49,536 nucleotides of DNA from a virus: IMG/VR virus record IMGVR_UViG_3300009506_000051, positions 1-49,536 of that record, one strand, 5' to 3'. Every line of letters starts with the position of its first letter. Position 1 is the first letter of the stretch. This document shows positions 1,989-49,312 of this stretch, piece after piece. The notes beneath the pieces were generated by a model. That model was not told the DNA's origin. It did not search any database and saw only the letters and a list, made by a program, of their open reading frames with translations. Both the position numbers and the translations under genes were made by a program.

Positions 1989-4361
1989 CTAGGAAGTGGC
2001 GCCAAATGTCACCCATGTCGCAGGATTTCCTGTAACTGTGCAAACCTCCCCGATAAAACTGCTGCCACTCGGTTGGGGGTATAAACAGATATCCCCCCGA
2101 AAAGCAGCTGTAGGCGGTGTTGCGGCACGAGTGATGAGCTGCCCATTAATCCCGTTGTTATTTTGATAGAGCTTCGTGAAAGCAGCCGTGTCATTCGTAC
2201 AACCAACGGCAAACGGGATAGTAGCTTCTCCAAAATCATTATCCGAAATTCGGCCATAAGCAATGGTTCCGGCGCCCGAGTTCACGAATATAGGATAAGT
2301 CGTTGTTCCACCATAGCTGACATCGTTGCCGGTGCAGATCAGTTTGGTTATCGTCAGTGTAGCGTTAATCCGCAAGAACCCTTCCGCTGAAAACGCCCCG
2401 GTATTCACCTCGACAGCTGTATTGTTCTTGACCGCCAAGTGCTTGATATTGACTGCGCTTGCAGCGGCTATGAGTATTGCGCTAAGCGAGCTTCCGCCAA
2501 GCATATTATCGCTGATATCGACAAACTCCACCGCCGCGCCGTTACCAGGCCTAACCGCTATAGAATTAGTGACACCATCCTCTATCGTGTTGCCTTTGAT
2601 AACCACGCTGGTACATATTGTCGGAGATAGAATAAGTATCCCAGCCCCAAGCGCTCCTGGGTTAACGATACGATTGTTGGTTACAGTAACTCTGCCAACC
2701 GTTAGGAGAATTTGATGAAAGTTTGTATCAGGTACACAGTTATCTAACAAGTTGTTAGCTACCTCTACCACGCCAGCATTGGTCTGCGTTACAACAATGG
2801 CGCTTTTATTGAGTGTGTTTCTGATGATATTGTTTGATATATTTATCCTCCCCTGGTTTCCTGCCGCCCATGTGATTCCCCAAGTATTCGCAGCACTACG
2901 CATGTCTACGAAGTTATTGGTTATGATCACATCTGTAGGAACTTCGTACCCAAGAGAGACCGAAGTTTCAGTTGTGGCAAAAGCCGCGTCGCCTTCTATT
3001 CCTATTCCAATGTTTCCGATACAAACATTGTCGGAAATCACGCACCCCTTGTTCATCGCGCAGGCGATACCAACATCTCCGTTGTCGTTGCATACGTTGT
3101 TCGTGACGATTATCGCTCTGCTGTTCTGCGCTTCCGCTCCGGCATCCAGCATACCCATTGCGCTGATTCCGTTGCGTGTCCCGGCCGGTTGCCATAATCC
3201 GTTTCCGATGCATATATTGTCATCGATAAGACAATCGTATATGTTGACAGCACGAATCCCGGTCCCTGGAATGTTCTGACAAACCACCCCTGTGACAGAG
3301 CATCGTCTAGCAGCTATCAGGTAGATACCGGATAGCGTGTAATTGGCAGCTAGCACTGGACCCGCGTAGGTTGGTTTGATAGCGAAATCCTTGAAATGGA
3401 CGTCGGTTACAATCTTGCTTGGATCAACTATGTCTGACGCGCGCTCTCCTGCTAGATTCCCGGTGCTCGGATCTCCTGTCGTGAATACTCCATTGTTGGC
3501 TTTGGGCCACGGAAGGGTTGTCTCGTCAACCACTGTCGATATGTCTGGGACAATGATGCTTTGCCCACGCAGTCCGCTGATTGTGATGTTACTGGGTACG
3601 ATTACCGGGAGCGCGACGTTCCAGTTGTAACTTCCAGCAGGAATGAATACTTCTCCGCCGCCAAGAAAGCTCGCCATATTGACCGCAGCCTGTGCTCCTT
3701 GACGATTGACCAAAGCACTTGAGTTCGGATTTACGCCGAACCACGACATTTTTATTTTTCCAACAAATTGCCTCACCCATGCGCCAGTAGACCCGTCTCC
3801 ACCAGACGGAGCGCAATACAGTCCCTTGCGAGTGTCGGCAGCAACCTCGGCGCTCAAATCAGCCGTGCTCCATCTCCACCAACCATGCCCGCCATCCCCG
3901 GCAGTGGAGTAGCTCATCACGTAGAGCACGTCCCCGGCAACGAGGGCCCCAGTGTCTACCAAAGCAAGGGCTGCCACGTTGTCTACTGATTGCACCGGCT
4001 CGCTCAGGTTGCTGAGCAAAGTGAACACCACCTCGGTGGTGTCGGGAGTCCAGGTGCCGGTGAACTGGGCCCGCCGGATCGCCGAGGTCCCTGAGTCCAG
4101 CACCAGCACCCCGTTGACCACATCGTTGGCCGCGTTGAAGTCCTTTGTGCGGGTCCAGGCCCCGACCGCACAGTTGTAGAGTCCGTTCTCCGAGGCATCG
4201 GTCTGCCCGGTGACGCACACCCGTTGGCCGGCGGTCACCGCAACCCCGGCGACGGTCTGCTCTCCGGACAAGGTAATGTTCGTAGTGGCGGTTGCGACGA
4301 CGGGTGCCTTGATGCCCTCTTCTGGAGAGTCTCCAAGCCGGGTAGTATAAGAGCTTGCCAT
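1989..4361 (-). CDS. Tail spike / tail fibre with right-handed beta-helix
   Basis: 790 residues. The N-terminus (about 30-90) carries the common phage fibre motif GEQTVAGVAVTAGQRV...GQTDASENGLYNC..GAWTRTKDFN, probably part of the virion-attachment head. From about residue 200 to 700 the protein is a run of short N/I/V-rich coils (ITNNxV, IxxNxI, VSDNxC) typical of NosD/pectate-lyase-like parallel beta-helices, which in podoviruses bind or cut surface polysaccharide. No catalytic residues can be assigned. The start is preceded by AAGGAGAA at good spacing. A rearranged copy of the N-terminal motif occurs in the early gene at 37244-37747. Confidence 0.85.
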   Translation of the reverse strand: MASSYTTRLGDSPEEGIKAPVVATATTNITLSGEQTVAGVAVTAGQRVCVTGQTDASENGLYNCAVGAWTRTKDFNAANDVVNGVLVLDSGTSAIRRAQFTGTWTPDTTEVVFTLLSNLSEPVQSVDNVAALALVDTGALVAGDVLYVMSYSTAGDGGHGWWRWSTADLSAEVAADTRKGLYCAPSGGDGSTGAWVRQFVGKIKMSWFGVNPNSSALVNRQGAQAAVNMASFLGGGEVFIPAGSYNWNVALPVIVPSNITISGLRGQSIIVPDISTVVDETTLPWPKANNGVFTTGDPSTGNLAGERASDIVDPSKIVTDVHFKDFAIKPTYAGPVLAANYTLSGIYLIAARRCSVTGVVCQNIPGTGIRAVNIYDCLIDDNICIGNGLWQPAGTRNGISAMGMLDAGAEAQNSRAIIVTNNVCNDNGDVGIACAMNKGCVISDNVCIGNIGIGIEGDAAFATTETSVSLGYEVPTDVIITNNFVDMRSAANTWGITWAAGNQGRINISNNIIRNTLNKSAIVVTQTNAGVVEVANNLLDNCVPDTNFHQILLTVGRVTVTNNRIVNPGALGAGILILSPTICTSVVIKGNTIEDGVTNSIAVRPGNGAAVEFVDISDNMLGGSSLSAILIAAASAVNIKHLAVKNNTAVEVNTGAFSAEGFLRINATLTITKLICTGNDVSYGGTTTYPIFVNSGAGTIAYGRISDNDFGEATIPFAVGCTNDTAAFTKLYQNNNGINGQLITRAATPPTAAFRGDICLYPQPSGSSFIGEVCTVTGNPATWVTFGATS

Positions 4362-30341: not shown

Positions 30342-30371
30342 TTGACGGAAGTCTAGACGTTCGTCTACTAT
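30342..30371 (+). promoter_or_regulatory. Sigma70-like early promoter P1 with palindromic spacer
   Basis: TTGACG (30342-30347), 18-base spacer, TACTAT (30366-30371). The spacer holds the perfect palindrome GTCTAGAC (30351-30358) and a second dyad GACGTTCGTC, positions suited to a repressor or activator. It drives the rightward cluster 30423-32360. The word GTCTAGA occurs at the same place in the promoter at 36951. The 163-base gap 30260-30422 also has to hold the leftward promoter of the terminase genes; only a weak candidate (TTGATG...TATTGA) is visible there. Confidence 0.75.
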
Positions 30372-30721: not shown

Positions 30722-31345
30722 ATGACGACCGAAAATACCATTACCATCCCCCTTTCCTTTTTGCGCGCTGTTTCACTATTCGCCGCCTATCAGGACGTGC
30801 GCTACTACCTCAACGGGATCTATGTCGATCCCGATGGAGTCCTCGTCGCCAGCAACGGACACCAAATGATCGTCCATGAATTGGGCGAAAAATCCCCCCT
30901 GCCCGTTGACCCACTCAACGGCGCGACCATCATCCCTATAGATGCCGTCCAAGCTACCATCAGAGCCGGCCGTAGCACTTGTACGACAACCATCCCCGCC
31001 GACAATGTGACTATCGCCGCCAGCCAGCTGATCGTTCATACCAAATCGGGCGACGTATCCCTCCCCTACCAGCCCATCGACGGGAAGTTCGTCGACTGGC
31101 GCCAGATAGCCCGGTCCGTTAAGGAAACCGCCGAAAAAGCCCAAGGCGAGCGCAGCATCTGCTTCCACTGGCCCTACCTGGCCGATTGCCAGACCGCCTT
31201 CGACCTGATCGCGAAGGGTAGGCTTGGTCAGAACGCCAAAGAGGCCACTGCCGTGCAGCTCACTCTCAGCGACAACACAGCCGCCATCGCTACCTGCGCC
31301 GTCGTCCCTAGCACCACGTGCTACGTGATGCCCAAGCGCCCCTAG
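30722..31345 (+). CDS. DNA polymerase III beta-clamp-like protein
   Basis: 207 residues from the ATG 30722 with GAGGA upstream. The opening FLRAVSLFAAYQDVRYYLNGIYV, then GVLVASNGHQMIVHEL, IIPIDAV and the strand GDVSLPYQPIDGKFVDW follow the beta-clamp repeat (a strand-turn ...ATDGHRL-type element). It is about half the length of DnaN (about 370), so it holds one to two of the three clamp repeats and would need to assemble as an oligomer. It could serve the phage polymerase at 39838 or interfere with the host clamp. Confidence 0.7.
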   Translation: MTTENTITIPLSFLRAVSLFAAYQDVRYYLNGIYVDPDGVLVASNGHQMIVHELGEKSPLPVDPLNGATIIPIDAVQATIRAGRSTCTTTIPADNVTIAASQLIVHTKSGDVSLPYQPIDGKFVDWRQIARSVKETAEKAQGERSICFHWPYLADCQTAFDLIAKGRLGQNAKEATAVQLTLSDNTAAIATCAVVPSTTCYVMPKRP

Positions 31346-31398: not shown

Positions 31399-31638
31399 AT
31401 GGATACGATCACAATCTACGCACCCATAAGCGGCGTCTACCGCGCGGTCTCCGCGGGCGCGGAAGAGTATCTGGTCCTGGCAGAGGAGCCGGGCGGCAAT
31501 CTGCGCAGGGAGGGCCCAGATTCTGGAGAGAGATTTTTCCCGTCTGATCCGCTCTGGTGGCTCGCTTTCGAAGTCCCAGACCCGCCAGCACGCATCGTAC
31601 TCACGGGCACCCTGGGGTCCCTGGAGATCCCACAATGA
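31399..31638 (+). CDS. Early hypothetical protein (79 aa)
   Basis: CGGAG precedes the ATG and the stop overlaps the next start (ATGA). The protein is acidic and beta-rich (MDTITIYAPISGVYRAVSAG, WWLAFEVPDPPARIVLTG). No family recognised. Confidence 0.55.
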   Translation: MDTITIYAPISGVYRAVSAGAEEYLVLAEEPGGNLRREGPDSGERFFPSDPLWWLAFEVPDPPARIVLTGTLGSLEIPQ

Positions 31639-31910
31639 CCATCAATACCGACATCAACAGCCTCCAGGAGCGCCTACGCGCTCGTCAGAAGGCACGACAG
31701 GCCACCCCCGCACCTACCACCCCACCCCGTCGCAAACACGCTGGCGGACGCCCTCTCAAGCACCAGGAGAGCATGGTGCGGGTAGCCTACCGGCTCCCGG
31801 GAAGCCTCGTCGCCCGGCTCAAATCCCTGGCAACAGCGAACGGCACCACCCAAACTGAGATTCTGATTAGAGCGATTGCAGAGTTAGACCGCTCCACACG
31901 CCAAACCTAA
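31635..31910 (+). CDS. Ribbon-helix-helix (CopG/Arc-type) DNA-binding protein
   Basis: 91 residues. The N-terminal half is basic, Pro/Ala/Arg-rich and probably disordered; the C-terminal half is a clear RHH fold: strand VRVAYRLP, helix GSLVARLKSLATANG, turn, helix TQTEILIRAIAELD. Such dimers bind direct or inverted repeats as repressors or partition factors. It is one of two RHH genes flanking the repeat array at 32931-33252 and may act there or at the GTCTAGA word of the early promoters. Confidence 0.75.
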   Translation: MTINTDINSLQERLRARQKARQATPAPTTPPRRKHAGGRPLKHQESMVRVAYRLPGSLVARLKSLATANGTTQTEILIRAIAELDRSTRQT

Positions 31911-32171: not shown

Positions 32172-32360
32172 ATGAGAATAAAGACAGCATATGGATACTA
32201 CACTGGCCCGATGAATACCCTCACCGGCGCTGATCTCACCGGTGCTGATCTCACCGGTGCACGCCAGGAGAGTATGTATTCCCTGATAGCTGGGATACGA
32301 ATAGGTGGGCCGAGTGTAGTCACGGCATCCATTTCTTCCTTGATCCCGAGCATGCTCTAG
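32172..32360 (+). CDS. Small protein with three pentapeptide-like repeats
   Basis: 62 residues with GAGGAAAA upstream of the ATG. The centre is LTGADLTGADLTGARQE, that is three A(D/R)LTG pentapeptide-like units coded by a 15-base tandem repeat (about 32221-32262). The rest is Ile/Ser-rich. Three units are too few for a stable pentapeptide helix, so this may be a remnant or an expanding repeat. Last gene of the P1 cluster. Confidence 0.5.
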   Translation: MRIKTAYGYYTGPMNTLTGADLTGADLTGARQESMYSLIAGIRIGGPSVVTASISSLIPSML

Positions 32361-32585: not shown

Positions 32586-32640
32586 CTGGCATCTCCCAGT
32601 TCACCGTGAAATTTACCGAAAACCCCTCGCACCGGGGGTC

Positions 32641-32930
32641 ATCACAAAACGTGACGCCTTCGCGTCCCTTTTGTGACGCCATCAACCTCTTGATTCTACT
32701 GCTAAAACTGAGCAAAAGCACCCCTCGCATCACAAATCACAATCCGGTTTGAAGAGTATCAACCCCCTTACTCTTTTTCTTATCTTCTTTTTACTATTCC
32801 CCCTACCTTCTTTACTACTACCCCAATATTTTGTGATTATGTGATTTATATAAGGGAATCAAAGATTTACGACGTCACAAACCCATCACATCCCGCATCA
32901 CAAACACATTTTTTTTGCTGCTCCGAATTG
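32641..32930. other. AT-rich intergenic stretch with clustered TCACAAA words
   Basis: No gene is supported here. About nine copies of (A/G)TCACAAA or its complement lie between 32641 and 32905 (for example 32641, 32670 rc, 32729, 32736, 32830 rc, 32840 rc, 32874, 32884, 32896), on both strands. Bases 32760-32870 are pyrimidine- and AT-rich, a strong contrast to the GC-rich genome. Next to the repeat array this looks like the unwinding part of a replication origin, with short protein-binding boxes. Confidence 0.6.
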
Positions 32931-33252
32931 TTTACCTGTCTACTGTTGACCTGTACGCATTGTTTACCTGTCTACTGTTGACCTGTACGCATCGTTTACC
33001 TGTCTACTGTTGACCTGTACGCATCGTTTACCTGTCTACTGTTGACCTGTACGCATCGTTTACCTGTCTACTGTTGACCTGTACGCATCGTTTACCTGTC
33101 TACTGCTTACGAGGTACACTGTATTACCTGTCTACTGTTGACAGGTATGCCCCTGTTTACCTGTCTACTGCTTACGAGGTACACTGTATTACCTGTCTAC
33201 TTGTTTACGAGGTACACTGTATTACCTGTCTACTTGTTTACGAGGTACACAA
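32931..33252 (+). repeat. Array of ten 32-33 bp tandem repeats (iteron/operator-like)
   Basis: Ten units begin TTTACCTGTCTACT or ATTACCTGTCTACT at 32931, 32963, 32995, 33027, 33059, 33091, 33123, 33156, 33188 and 33221. Units 1-5 are nearly identical and carry a second ACCTGT half-site in direct orientation (TTGACCTGTACGC); units 6, 8, 9 and 10 carry it inverted (TTACGAGGTACAC), and unit 7 is intermediate with TTGACAGGTA. Half-sites are therefore spaced about 16 bases, on one face of the helix every three turns. The last unit supplies the GAGG ribosome-binding site of the RHH gene at 33257. Confidence 0.9.
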
Positions 33253-33256
33253 TCCC

Positions 33257-33682
33257 ATGAAAGCCAAACACCCTGCCCTCGGGTCTTCGCGGCCAACCAC
33301 CCACCGCCTGCCGTCGCACATCATAAACTGGCTGGCAGAAGCTGCGGACGAGGAAGGCCTATCCAAAAGCGAGTTCTTGATTCGCCTGATACAAAGCCAG
33401 CCGAATTACCGTGCGCCCGTAACCCCCGTTGCTCCCGACCACGCCCCACCTAAGCCCCGCCAAGGGCGCCGCCGCAAGTATCCACAATACGGTCCCTCGG
33501 TTGTCTTGTCCGTTCGCGTGCCCCTCGAGATCAAAGACAAGCTAACCAGAATAGCTAGCACCACAAACAGCACTCCAGCGGATGCCCTGGTACACATAGT
33601 TGAAGGTGCTTGGTCGCCTCCGATATACCCACCTGTGCCCCAGTATCCGTCGCCCGCTGAGTCTGACGATTTCGACGACTGA
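33257..33682 (+). CDS. Protein with two ribbon-helix-helix domains, array-linked
   Basis: 141 residues from the ATG 33257, the first after the array; a longer reading back to 33074 translates the repeats and is rejected. Domain one is THRLPSHIINWLAEAADEEG and SKSEFLIRLIQSQ (about 15-48); domain two is VLSVRVPLEIKDKLTRIAST, then STPADALVHIVEGAW (about 78-112). A basic linker (KPRQGRRRKYPQYG) joins them and an acidic tail ends it (ESDDFDD). Two RHH units in one chain mimic a dimer. Its ribosome-binding site lies in the last repeat, so binding would repress it. Confidence 0.75.
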   Translation: MKAKHPALGSSRPTTHRLPSHIINWLAEAADEEGLSKSEFLIRLIQSQPNYRAPVTPVAPDHAPPKPRQGRRRKYPQYGPSVVLSVRVPLEIKDKLTRIASTTNSTPADALVHIVEGAWSPPIYPPVPQYPSPAESDDFDD

Positions 33683-33710: not shown

Positions 33711-33736
33711 AAAAAAAAGCCGGTCTTTCGACCGGC
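33711..33736 (-). terminator. Strong rho-independent terminator after the primase/helicase gene
   Basis: On the minus strand GCCGGT and ACCGGC (33719-33736) form a perfect stem with loop CGAAAG, followed by eight T (33711-33718). It lies just downstream of the leftward stop at 33761, between this gene and the convergent RHH gene. Confidence 0.9.
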
Positions 33737-33760
33737 TCGTACAACTTCTGCCCCAAAGGA

Positions 33761-36748
33761 TCAGTCCGCAGGCACCATCCCGAACATCTTCTTTTGCCGC
33801 GGCATCAGGTAGGGCCGCACGGTCCCACTCCGCCGCGGATCTCGCATGTCCTTCCACCCCGTCTGCTGCCCGGTCATCTCCTTGAGCACTTGCATCACAA
33901 TCCCTCGCCCGGGCCCCTCCTTCCCCAGGTGCTGCAGCTCCCGCACCACCTCGGTCATAACCTCCTTGGTGGTCTTCGCCCAGCACCAGTCCAGTTGATC
34001 CCGCACCGCGTCTGCCCGATGCTGGAGGCTCGCCGTCTTCCACTCCTCACACTCGAAATCCCAGATCGACTCCAGAGCCTCCCGCGCTACGTCATACAGG
34101 TCCCCGCCGGAGACGAACGCTTGATTCGTATCCTTCACCCACTGGAGCTCGGCTCCCTCCAGCCACCACCGGCCCCGCTCCCCGCCGGCCCGATACCACT
34201 CCTGCACTTCAAGCCAGAACTGCCAGTGTTCCTCGCTCCCCTGCGGCCCCAGCACCGCCCACATTCGATCGAAGTCAACCATGCCCGAGATGCTGAGCAC
34301 AGCATACCGGCTGTTATGCCCCCGGTCCCGCAAGAAGTCCCACCGGTTCACCGTCCCCGCGAACACCGTCCTTCGCGGATGCGTCCGCGGGCCCCGGGCG
34401 TAGGGAGTGCGGTACGTGTCTTCATCGGCCGACAGGAAGGCCTTCAACGCCGGCATGTCGCCCCGGCCCAGCGTGGTGCTGTCCAGCTCCCCCAGCTCGC
34501 ACAACAGCGCCTCGGTCGCCTCCCGCTTCGAGTCCACCTTGTGCAGGTCCAACGACCGCCCCTCCGCAAACCATCGCGCATCGGGCAGCAACCGCCGGAG
34601 CCACGTTGTCTTACCGGTGTACTCCGCCCCTTGCAGCACCAAGACCAACCGCAGCGGGATCTTCCCCAGACCTGGAACATCACACGACTGCGCGGCCGCG
34701 CAGAACGATACCAACCACCTCCGCACCGATAGATCCCGCCACGCCTCGGCCTGCGCCTGTCCCTCACCCCGAGCGGGTGCTACGGGTAGGCACTCGATCA
34801 CCCGCTGTACGCGCTCCACCCCGTCCCAGCCGGCCCCACCCCCCTCTTGGGACCGCAGCCACAACCCCTCGGCGAACGGGTGGTACTGGTGCTGGAATGC
34901 AATCTCGTCCAGCACCCCGGGCAATCTCGCGGTCAGCGACCGGAAATGCGCCCTCTGCAGGATGTCCGCGATGGCCACCTCCACCGCATCCTTGCTTCGC
35001 TCGTCCGAGCATAGGTGCGCCATACCCTCGGCCACGGGCCGGCGTTTGCACAGGTCGAACCGGATCCGTATGTGCAACGCCTCCAGCACCAGCGTCACGT
35101 TGGCCACCGACGTGTATGGCAGCATTTGCGGGTCCCGGTCAGGATAGGGCAGCAGTTGCAGGTTCACTCCCTGCACTATGGGCCCCGTCTCCGAGCCCTC
35201 GCCCATCTTCCCCCACGCCTCGAACCACGCGTCTAGCTCCCGGCGCACGACCCGGAGCTGTGTTTTCATATCGGCCTTGCCGGCACCCAGCCGAACCCGA
35301 GCATGCTCGAGCACCCGGGCCTCATCGAGTGCCGTCAACCCTGTGCCCTGGGGCCCGGTTTCGCGTCGGCGCCACTCCACTAAGTCCGCCAGCCACTCAC
35401 TCACCAACGCTGAATCGCTGGTCGGAGACATCTTGTCCGCTCGCTCCCACAGGTCATCCTTCGCGTTCAGCGGAGGCAGGGATATAGAGTAGGGGGGTGC
35501 TGGGGTGTCGGAGGGAGCGGGGGTGGGCGGGGGTAGTGGTACGGAATCGAGAAGATTTGACGCCACTGTTGCGCTCGGATCTTTCGCGAAGGCCCTTGCC
35601 GCCAGATCGGCGGGTATCTCCGCGGCCTCATTGAGCCAGGTCTCCCAGCCCTTCGGTCCAGTTGACGGGAAGCGCACCACGTTCCCCCTCCCCGGCAGGT
35701 CCGCAGCCGCCTGCACTTGGAACGGTGCTGCTGCCTCTTGGTCAGCCCGGTGCTTGATCACTGCTCGAGCCACCTCGTCGGCGAGAAATTGTTGCGCCTT
35801 CTCCGTTCGGTGCGCCCGGTGGTCCATGGCAACGAGCCAAGACCCGGGAGAATAGATGAGCAGGGAGTAGATGAAGTCGTGAGACAGGTCCCGGTGAAGT
35901 AGAGAGCGAAGGGTAGAGCGAAGGACGACCGATCGATCTTGCCCGCCGGACTGTGCCCGGGTGTCCCAACCTTGCTCCAATAGCGATCGGTGATGCGGTT
36001 TCAGCAGGTCCCGCAGCCGCGCGTACTCCGCCCGCACCTCGGCTTCGTTCAACAGCGTCAACTCCCCGCCGATATCCGCTAGGTCGCCGCTCGCTGCGCG
36101 GTCTGCTCCGACGTCGGTCACTCCCCGCACCTTGATATACAAGGTCGCCAGACTCTCCTGGCTGATCGGCAGTACCTCGACCGAGCACCCCTCCACCCGA
36201 TGTCCGGTGAAAGTCACATATCGCGCGCTGAACCCCGCGTAGGCTTCCACCCCGATGTCGATCCCCCACTCCTCGTCCCTGATCGTCCCTCGCCCGATGT
36301 CGCCCCAGCCCGGGGGCACTTCCCCTACCCATACTGCTCTCAGTCCTCGGCCACTGGGGCTGCGCTCCCAGTAGGTAGGGTACTGGCGCATCAGATCTCG
36401 CATAATGGGTGCGATCTCGCCCCGCGCATTGATACACCCGTCAAAGTCCCAGAACGACAGGCCCCAGGCCGGCAGCACCAGCAGACCTAGACCGGCGCTG
36501 CTCGGGTTTGCGCAGTACCACTCCCAGGCTACGTTAAATGCGCCCCACATCTCGGGCTTCGTGGTCTTGGCGTTGCGCTCGGTGGCGGGACACACGGGGA
36601 TCTTCAGAGGTTTGCCGCCACCCGGCACAGATATGGCGCTCCACGGGCACCAACCCGATAATTGCCGTAAAATTAGGGGGATATTCTCAGGTATGGGGGC
36701 CAGGCCCCAGGGCTGTTGGTGTTGCTTTTTATGGTATTGTTGTGCCAT
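33761..36748 (-). CDS. Primase plus VapE-type helicase/ATPase
   Basis: 995 residues. The N-terminal third looks like the archaeo-eukaryotic/bifunctional prim-pol of phages: LSGWCPWS opening, catalytic-type SFWDFDG (D101, D103), then ERSPSGRGLRAVW (129-140). The C-terminal third is the VapE superfamily-3-like ATPase: LQGAEYTGKTTW Walker A near 706-716, ELGELDSTTLGRGDMPALKAFLSA, and FAGTVN...SRYAVLSI (sensor and Arg). It would start and unwind phage DNA. It is the only leftward gene between two rightward blocks and lies beside the origin-like region. GAGGA lies 11 bases before the ATG. Confidence 0.85.
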   Translation of the reverse strand: MAQQYHKKQHQQPWGLAPIPENIPLILRQLSGWCPWSAISVPGGGKPLKIPVCPATERNAKTTKPEMWGAFNVAWEWYCANPSSAGLGLLVLPAWGLSFWDFDGCINARGEIAPIMRDLMRQYPTYWERSPSGRGLRAVWVGEVPPGWGDIGRGTIRDEEWGIDIGVEAYAGFSARYVTFTGHRVEGCSVEVLPISQESLATLYIKVRGVTDVGADRAASGDLADIGGELTLLNEAEVRAEYARLRDLLKPHHRSLLEQGWDTRAQSGGQDRSVVLRSTLRSLLHRDLSHDFIYSLLIYSPGSWLVAMDHRAHRTEKAQQFLADEVARAVIKHRADQEAAAPFQVQAAADLPGRGNVVRFPSTGPKGWETWLNEAAEIPADLAARAFAKDPSATVASNLLDSVPLPPPTPAPSDTPAPPYSISLPPLNAKDDLWERADKMSPTSDSALVSEWLADLVEWRRRETGPQGTGLTALDEARVLEHARVRLGAGKADMKTQLRVVRRELDAWFEAWGKMGEGSETGPIVQGVNLQLLPYPDRDPQMLPYTSVANVTLVLEALHIRIRFDLCKRRPVAEGMAHLCSDERSKDAVEVAIADILQRAHFRSLTARLPGVLDEIAFQHQYHPFAEGLWLRSQEGGGAGWDGVERVQRVIECLPVAPARGEGQAQAEAWRDLSVRRWLVSFCAAAQSCDVPGLGKIPLRLVLVLQGAEYTGKTTWLRRLLPDARWFAEGRSLDLHKVDSKREATEALLCELGELDSTTLGRGDMPALKAFLSADEDTYRTPYARGPRTHPRRTVFAGTVNRWDFLRDRGHNSRYAVLSISGMVDFDRMWAVLGPQGSEEHWQFWLEVQEWYRAGGERGRWWLEGAELQWVKDTNQAFVSGGDLYDVAREALESIWDFECEEWKTASLQHRADAVRDQLDWCWAKTTKEVMTEVVRELQHLGKEGPGRGIVMQVLKEMTGQQTGWKDMRDPRRSGTVRPYLMPRQKKMFGMVPAD

Positions 36749-36950: not shown

Positions 36951-36979
36951 TTGACTTTTGTCTAGATAAGGAAGAGAAT
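36951..36979 (+). promoter_or_regulatory. Early promoter P2 for the replication block
   Basis: TTGACT (36951-36956), 17-base spacer, GAGAAT (36974-36979). The spacer has GTCTAGA at 36960-36966, nine bases after the first base of the -35, exactly as in P1 and P3. The leader to the first gene is about 150 bases and can form a hairpin (GCCGTCT...AGACGG, about 37083-37103). The poor first bases of the -10 suggest that it needs help. Confidence 0.6.
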
Positions 36980-37136: not shown

Positions 37137-37241
37137 ATGCAGACCGTCTTTGATTTTCTTTTTCTTTTCGCATGCGTGGCTGGGGTGTTCACCGTCGCCG
37201 CGTTTGTGTCTGATATCATCCAAAAGATTTGGGAGGAGTAA
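37137..37241 (+). CDS. Single-span membrane mini-protein (34 aa)
   Basis: MQTVFDFLFLFACVAGVF and on to AAFVSDIIQKIWEE: one hydrophobic span with a short amphipathic tail. It lies between P2 and the next gene, whose GGAGG ribosome-binding site is contained in its last codons. Early membrane mini-proteins of this type can block superinfection or alter the host membrane, but nothing specific is seen. Confidence 0.5.
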   Translation: MQTVFDFLFLFACVAGVFTVAAFVSDIIQKIWEE

Positions 37242-37243
37242 AA

Positions 37244-37747
37244 ATGTTGAGTTTAGAAGACAAACGAGAAATCCTGGAGTTACTGGTGGATACACTCGTA
37301 GAGACACTCAACACGCTTCCTGAGACACCCGTGCCAGAGCCAGAGCCAGAGCCCGAGACGCCTGTGTTGCCCGTTACCGGACAGACCGATGCTGCGGAAA
37401 ACGGGCTCTATAGCTGTGCAGAAGGGTCCTGGGCCCATACAACAGAGATCAACGCGACTAACGATATGGAGCAAACCGGCGAGCAAACCGGCGAGCAAAC
37501 CGGCGAGCAAACCATTGACGGGGTTGCGGTGACCACCGGGGATAGGATGCGCGTATCTGTCCAAGCACCCACCCTGGAGCAGCTCCAAGGCTATCTCGCC
37601 TCGGTCGTCCCGATACTTGGCGGGCCGACGATCTACAAGATCATCTGTGAGACCACCCCCGCCGGCAAGATTACCGACCTGGACGCCCCGGGCCGTCTTG
37701 AGGTAGCGCTAGCTATCGCAAAGCAGATGGAAGGGAGGACAGCATGA
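37244..37747 (+). CDS. Early protein carrying a rearranged copy of the tail-spike N-terminal motif
   Basis: 167 residues from the ATG 37244 (GGGAGGAG upstream). The N-terminal helix (LEDKREILELLVDTLVETLN) is followed by a PEPEPEPE linker, then VTGQTDAAENGLYSCAEGSW (44-63), three GEQT repeats (79-90), and QTIDGVAVTTGDRMRV (89-104). In the tail spike the same two pieces occur in the opposite order (residues 32-50, then 51-81). The C-terminal part (LEQLQGYLASVVPILGG...) is different and unknown. The DNA of the pieces is also similar, so this is a duplication with rearrangement. Function unknown. Confidence 0.7.
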   Translation: MLSLEDKREILELLVDTLVETLNTLPETPVPEPEPEPETPVLPVTGQTDAAENGLYSCAEGSWAHTTEINATNDMEQTGEQTGEQTGEQTIDGVAVTTGDRMRVSVQAPTLEQLQGYLASVVPILGGPTIYKIICETTPAGKITDLDAPGRLEVALAIAKQMEGRTA

Positions 37748-44904: not shown

Positions 44905-45158
44905 CCACTCGCAGAACTAATATCCGAACTCCCACCTACGCCGAGAGGCACCCCGGCACCGAAGCCGCTGCCCTCACCGCGGCTCTCGCCGACATCTACA
45001 CCGAGGCCGAGGTGCGTGAGCGGCTGGACGACAACAACCGGCAGACGTGGTGGTATCGAAAGCAACAGATCCGGGATGCCTGTGGCTTCCGGGTGCGGCA
45101 AAACTGGTTCTACCATAAAGACCTGGTGGAAGGTTTTTTGATTTCAATACGTCCTTGA
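44901..45158 (+). CDS. Hypothetical protein, paralogue of the gene at 47835
   Basis: 85 residues, ATGA overlap with the helicase stop. The core AALADIYTEAEVRERL, WWYRKQ, ACGFRVRQNWFYHKDLV matches the gene at 47835-48140 (TEAELRNTL, NWFNHREKL, GVQFRDLWFYLPKGV). The conserved Trp/Tyr and Arg residues after a TEAE helix suggest a small winged-helix-like DNA-binding or excisionase-like fold, but this is a guess. The -35 of promoter P3 overlaps its stop codon. Confidence 0.65.
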   Translation: MTTRRTNIRTPTYAERHPGTEAAALTAALADIYTEAEVRERLDDNNRQTWWYRKQQIRDACGFRVRQNWFYHKDLVEGFLISIRP

Positions 45159-45183
45159 CTTTTGTCGAGAGCGGAGCGATACT
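45155..45183 (+). promoter_or_regulatory. Internal rightward promoter P3
   Basis: TTGACT (45155-45160), 17-base spacer, GATACT (45178-45183). GTCGAGA at 45164-45170 matches the GTCTAGA word of P1 and P2 at the same offset. The predicted start is about 25-30 bases before the next gene. Confidence 0.65.
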
Positions 45184-48834: not shown

Positions 48835-49063
48835 TTGACCGCGACTCTGGCTACGGCGCCGGCTTCGGCTCCGGCTGCGGCTTCGGCTCCGGCTGCGGCC
48901 ACGGTTCCGGCTCCGGCTCAGGCTACGGCTTCGGCGTTGGCAATGGCGACGGCTCCGGTTACAGCTCTGGCTCTGGCTCCGGCTACGGTTTCGGTTTCGG
49001 TTACGGCGATGGCGACGGCTCTGGCTCCGACTCCGCATATGGCGACGAACAGGCGTGGTCCGC

Positions 49064-49067
<4 letters not shown>
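48831..49067 (+). CDS. Gly/Ser/aromatic-rich repeat protein (78 aa)
   Basis: From a GTG overlapping the upstream stop: VIDRDSGYGAGFGSGCGFGS and on in GSG, GYG and GFG units, ending DEQAWSA. Such GSGYG proteins follow DUF6948 genes in many phages. Composition resembles aggregating or silk-like low-complexity proteins. Its end (AWSA, then ATGATT) copies the end of the upstream gene (EWSA, then GTGATT), suggesting a tandem module. Confidence 0.65.

Positions 49068-49312
<245 letters not shown>

Follow-up and report, generated by a model that had tools for sequence, protein, structure and literature searches.

The analysed window is the whole of IMG/VR record IMGVR_UViG_3300009506_000051 (49,536 bases, positions 1 to 49,536), which derives from an uncultured tailed phage, has a G+C content of 57.8% and is possibly an incomplete fragment. 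Profile scans with Pfam and PHROGs identified leftward structural genes (major head protein, head-tail adaptor, tail proteins and terminase) and right-hand replication genes for a VapE-like primase-helicase, DUF2800, an Enc34-type single-stranded DNA-binding protein, DNA polymerase A, and SNF2-type and Dda-like helicases. Between a leftward small ORF, which extends to 32592, and a gene for a 141-aa protein lie 664 bp of non-coding DNA with 44% G+C. This region holds a repeat array that runs into the start of the 141-aa gene, whose product has two predicted ribbon-helix-helix (RHH) domains. The features of the locus are as follows:

About 30722-31345: sliding-clamp-like protein (DNA_pol3_beta_2, E 2e-4; PHROG processivity factor, E 4e-10)
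31635-31910, plus strand: second RHH protein (91 aa) with a single domain akin to RHH domain 1 of the 141-aa protein; it could instead be the binder of the repeat array or of the motif cluster below
32640-32904, motifs in both orientations: second iterated motif cluster with 7 copies of (A/C)ATCACA and 6 of TCACAAA, candidate sites of another factor
32751-32870: AT-rich stretch (32.5% G+C; only one other 120-bp window of the record is lower), a candidate unwinding element
32931-33090, plus strand: array units 1-5 (alpha), five almost identical 32-bp units TTTACCTGTCTACTGTTGACCTGTACGCATCG, each with the pseudo-dyad TACctGTCtACtGTtGACctGTA (8/11 pairs)
33091-33122, plus strand: unit 6 (beta), first half as in the other units, second half CTTACGAGGTACACTGT
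33123-33155, plus strand: unit 7 (gamma), near-perfect 23-bp dyad TACCTGTCTACTGTTGACAGGTA at 33125-33147
33156-33250, plus strand: units 8-10 (beta); GAGGT, the ribosome-binding site for the 141-aa gene, lies in the last
33257-33682, plus strand: 141-aa protein (141 codons) with two predicted RHH domains, the proposed autoregulator
33717-33738: terminator-like hairpin between the 141-aa RHH gene and the convergent VapE gene, with a T-run on the minus strand
33761-36748: VapE-like primase-helicase, convergent with the 141-aa gene

The array occupies 32931-33250 and ends in the ribosome-binding site of the 141-aa gene. Its units start at 32931, 32963, 32995, 33027, 33059, 33091, 33123, 33156, 33188 and 33221, at a spacing of 32 or 33, and fall into three types in the order alpha (five units, a count that may be misjudged for near-identical copies in a metagenomic short-read assembly), beta, gamma and three further beta. 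The mapped starts, Tandem Repeats Finder (scores 364 and 393) and a shuffle control bear out the ten units of 32-33 bp described in the initial annotation, and the array is not a product of chance. The first half of the unit is an invariant 13-mer, TTACCTGTCTACT, present in 10/10 units and without an exact copy elsewhere in the window, a confinement that fits a local target. With up to 3 mismatches allowed, it gave 15 matches against 6.2 ± 2.6 in shuffled sequence, and all ten exact copies lay within the array. When alpha and beta units are compared, 15/15 positions are identical in the first half and 5/17 in the second (Fisher p 3e-5). Because the first half is perfectly conserved and the second has diverged, this pattern suggests that the first half is the recognised part of the unit; homogenisation by recombination could contribute.

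The array was also considered in other capacities. A role as RNA was rejected, as its folding was no better than that of shuffles (z -1.05), and nothing was found in favour of a pac site for the terminase (terS is 2.7 kb away). Regular 8-bp sub-repeats within the unit (GTnnAC boxes) were not convincing, with a max-statistic p of 0.84 for alpha and 0.045 for beta unit 6.

Direct second half-sites in units 1-5, inverted ones in units 6, 8, 9 and 10, and a spacing of about 16 bases had been proposed earlier. This split is not clean, because units 1-5 are themselves dyad-symmetric about the same centre as unit 7 (8/11 pairs, shuffle p 0.018). The second element of units 6, 8, 9 and 10 is TTACGAGGTAC; its ACCT/AGGT core is indeed inverted, but it spans only 4-5 bp and does not comprise ACCTGT, and the symmetry of the beta units is limited to the outer TACCT...AGGTA. 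Unit 7, which had been left out of the inverted set, is the strongest inverted case: its repeat TACCTGTC-TACTGTT-GACAGGTA has 10/11 symmetric pairs, a value reached by 0/3000 shuffles, and it is probably the best candidate for a single operator. The spacing varies as well, from ACCT to ACCT being 15 and 17 in units 1-5, and from ACCT to AGGT 17, 18 or 19. There are also 20 copies of a direct element, xTKAC, spaced 15-18 bp apart and spread over 10/10 units. At the level of sequence, direct and inverted readings coexist in the array, and each unit can be read as a single pseudo-dyad of 23-25 bp.

The likely ribosome-binding site, GAGGT, is located 10 nt before the ATG at 33257, in agreement with the earlier placement of the site in the last unit. 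This ATG is preferred as the start because it has its own ribosome-binding site; a longer ORF from a TTG start (33074-33682) was rejected, since it would translate the array itself. The encoded 141-aa protein is predicted to be a single-chain pseudo-dimer of two RHH domains. The predicted elements are a strand at residues 14-19 with helices at 20-33 and 37-46, and a strand at 81-86 with helices at 90-102 and 107-119; there is a basic, proline-rich linker, and the C-terminal end is acidic. Weak profile matches fall within the first half (RHH_1/RHH_5/Arc and HicB-like, residues 15-50) as well as the second (Arc-like repressor, residues 82-116), and an AlphaFold2 model made from the single sequence, with low confidence (mean pLDDT 59), shows strand-helix-helix twice. 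Prediction thus supports the earlier claim of two RHH domains in one chain. The best matches among solved structures, across residues 12-122, were F TraY (Z 10.4 over 87 residues, 2.1 Å), permuted single-chain Arc (Z 9.0) and AvtR (Z 8.9), and single RHH domains stayed below Z 6, well under the single-chain tandem RHH proteins. A phmmer search against all PDB chains returned nothing up to E 10. The likeness to AvtR and TraY is by fold only, which suggests that the protein works like single-chain tandem RHH regulators and does not imply a common lineage. An RHH antitoxin of a toxin-antitoxin pair was also considered and rejected: the operon contains no toxin gene, the RHH gene being followed by the terminator-like hairpin and the convergent VapE-like gene, and matches to RelB/VapB models were far below cut-off.

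Several known systems resemble parts of this arrangement. Arc of phage P22 binds as two dimers to a dyad operator of ~20 bp. Natural Arc is likewise a phage RHH repressor, and its permuted single-chain form is the second-best kind of structural match here, but each natural Arc chain contains one RHH, and its operator is single, with no array, whereas the present protein has two predicted RHH per chain and lies next to ten units. AvtR of Acidianus filamentous virus 6 (PDB 4hv0) carries two RHH motifs per chain; the monomer binds DNA, covers ~100 nt between promoters and acts as a repressor of the gene that encodes it (PMC5569661). It shares with the 141-aa protein a viral origin and two RHH in one chain, and in its virus, too, a neighbouring gene codes for another predicted RHH protein (gp30), comparable to the 91-aa protein. 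However, there is no detectable sequence similarity between the two, AvtR comes from an archaeal filamentous virus and the 141-aa protein from a tailed phage, and the AvtR sites are imperfect inverted repeats, no ten-unit array being described (PMC5569661). F plasmid TraY (PDB 9f0x and others), the best structural match, combines a whole RHH dimer fold in one polypeptide, and several molecules align on adjacent oriT sites (PMC12117103). Its role is in the conjugative relaxosome together with TraI and IHF, whereas no relaxase was seen among the proteins scanned in this record, and three TraY molecules on DNA compare with ten repeat units here.

An autoregulatory array is favoured because the position of the repeats over the gene start, the predicted fold and the behaviour of AvtR agree. 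Self-regulated RHH genes usually have an adjacent iterated array that overlaps the gene start. The most likely interpretation is an autoregulatory operator array of a single-chain repressor of the Arc/TraY/AvtR kind, in a region that may also be a replication origin. We assign a probability of roughly 0.55 to the array being a compound operator at which the downstream gene's own product binds, in negative autoregulation. The array abuts and overlaps the gene start, with the ribosome-binding site in the last unit, which counts for autoregulation, and the conserved half, the dyads in units 7 and 1-5 and the restriction of the 13-mer to the array count for an operator. Against it count the variable unit-to-unit spacing, the low confidence of the model, the second RHH protein of 91 aa, which could be the array binder, and the lack of a sigma-70-like promoter match within the array or immediately upstream of it.

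We infer that the 141-aa protein binds the array, that it binds cooperatively, and that it represses. Each unit of 32-33 bp would correspond to three helical turns and one Arc-like pseudo-dyad of 23-25 bp (TAC...GTA), and would seat two molecules. Since the units share one face of the DNA, bound molecules could form a continuous nucleoprotein filament over ~320 bp. Such a filament would cover the promoter and start region of the 141-aa gene and shut it off. Filling of the array would then report the level of the 141-aa protein, and might in addition set the timing of the neighbouring replication region. The arrangement is neat and not fundamentally new. Within a single chain, the halves of a DNA-binding unit that is normally symmetric can evolve apart, and ten natural sites of three types would allow study of direct, inverted and dyad reading and of spreading along DNA. 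The array further flags this stretch as a likely control or origin region of a phage group that is known from metagenomes only.

Just upstream of the array, and missed in the initial annotation, are the cluster of TCACAAA and ATCACA motifs and the AT-rich stretch. TCACAAA occurs 6 times in 340 bp and 2 times in the rest of the record; the Poisson p for the count of (A/C)ATCACA or TCACAAA is below 1e-10 in a region that was picked by eye beforehand. These motifs flank the AT-rich stretch and are separate from the ACCTGT array. Cluster and stretch may serve a further regulator as its operator, or form an origin. The chief alternative, possible but doubtful, is that the whole 664-bp non-coding region is the phage replication origin, with the ACCTGT units, the TCACAAA cluster or both serving as iterons, the AT-rich stretch melting, and RHH binding controlling initiation; the candidate initiator would be the VapE-like primase-helicase (33761-36748) or one of the RHH proteins. 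Because the AT-rich stretch and a second motif cluster adjoin the array, the origin suggested earlier is possible. Iterated sites beside an AT-rich unwinding stretch are expected of iteron origins; two motif families and such a stretch are present here, and its G+C content of 32.5% stands out against the 57.8% of the genome. The region is flanked on either side by replication genes (sliding clamp, VapE-like primase-helicase, DUF2800, ssDNA-binding protein, DNA polymerase A and helicases). In L059, a terminase relative, the non-coding DNA that separates the clamp-like gene from terS is AT-rich and contains repeats. However, DnaA-box-like sites are absent from the non-coding region, and the GC skew turns near 37-40 kb, where the gene strand turns, and not at the array.

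An unlikely extension joins origin and repressor in a replication-coupled copy or timing switch, in which an RHH filament on the ten-unit dyad array would repress its own gene and gate melting of the AT-rich origin. If true, an RHH-gated AT-rich phage origin would be of a kind not described.

We consider it quite improbable that another protein, the 91-aa RHH protein (31635-31910) or a host factor, binds the array and that the 141-aa protein acts elsewhere. The gene for the 91-aa protein, located 1.3 kb upstream, had escaped notice in the first reading of the sequence. Its product is similar to RHH domain 1 of the 141-aa protein (11/30 identical), so that a fusion of two such RHH genes may have given rise to the two-domain protein. 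The promoter of its operon (30342-30371) contains GTCTACTATTG, a match to GTCTACTNTTG in the array units, but this is a single 11-mer that could be due to chance, and the array adjoins and overlaps the 141-aa gene.

Partition, with the RHH protein as centromere-binding protein and the array as parS/parC, as in pSM19035 omega or R1 ParR, is very unlikely: the layout does resemble pSM19035 parS, with 7-10 direct and inverted heptads overlapping promoters (PMC9499535), and type II parC, with tandem repeats upstream of the operon (PMC5016525), but no ParA-type ATPase was found in the possibly incomplete record (PF13614 search, control positive in 14/14 genomes), no partition NTPase occurred among the ORFs scanned in Pfam/PHROGs, and the units are of 32-33 bp rather than contiguous 7- or 11-bp iterons. 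Since no ParA was found, partition as put forward earlier is unsupported. Nothing speaks directly for copy control, another role put forward earlier. A ParM search (PF06406) gave no match in the record, and likewise none in the controls. Omega (ParB) of pSM19035 is an RHH protein whose mixed direct and inverted repeats overlap promoters including its own (PMC9499535), but it is a small two-chain dimer with contiguous 7-bp heptads and a ParA partner. The upstream ATCACA motifs resemble the omega heptad WATCACW; they are mostly dispersed, and the resemblance may be coincidence. The phage had also been described as otherwise apparently lytic; no tyrosine integrase was found in the record, which may be a fragment.

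Homologues of the 141-aa protein were absent from the viral_contigs and genome_contigs collections, from the phages collection (one chance match, E 9), from the plasmids collection (two weak partial matches) and from 25 records of terminase relatives, the last a weak search without positive control. The exact half-site gave single isolated matches and no array in viral_contigs, a 19-mer of the unit had no match in genome_contigs, and the VapE, clamp and DNA polymerase proteins led to no close relatives. An apparent array in the terminase relative L061 is a pentapeptide-repeat gene upstream of its terminase and not an operator array; it is longer than the small ORF at 32172-32360 of the present record, which has LTGAD pentapeptide repeats (15-bp tandem repeat at 32220-32260). 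In two other terminase relatives, L059 (3749-4248) and L060, the DNA upstream of terS is non-coding and contains 17-19 bp repeats as well as an AT run; in L059 this region sits between the clamp-like gene and terS. These may be origin or control regions of the same type whose sequence differs.

Further observations concern the rest of the record. The top PHROG match of the clamp-like protein (30722-31345) is labelled RusA-like resolvase, a family label that may be wrong. Near the right end, ~420 bp (48845-49266) consist of degenerate 6-bp repeats (CTCCGG, 69 copies). A motif, GQTDA(A/S)ENGLY, is common to a short protein whose gene (37229-37747) opens the replication operon and a tail-fibre-like protein at the opposite genome end (1989-4361). 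Finally, the sigma-70-like promoters of rightward operons at 30342-30371, 36951-36979 and 45155-45183 share TTGACNNNNGTC(T/G)AGA, an element that extends into the spacer and suggests that they form one class of early promoters or have an operator in common.
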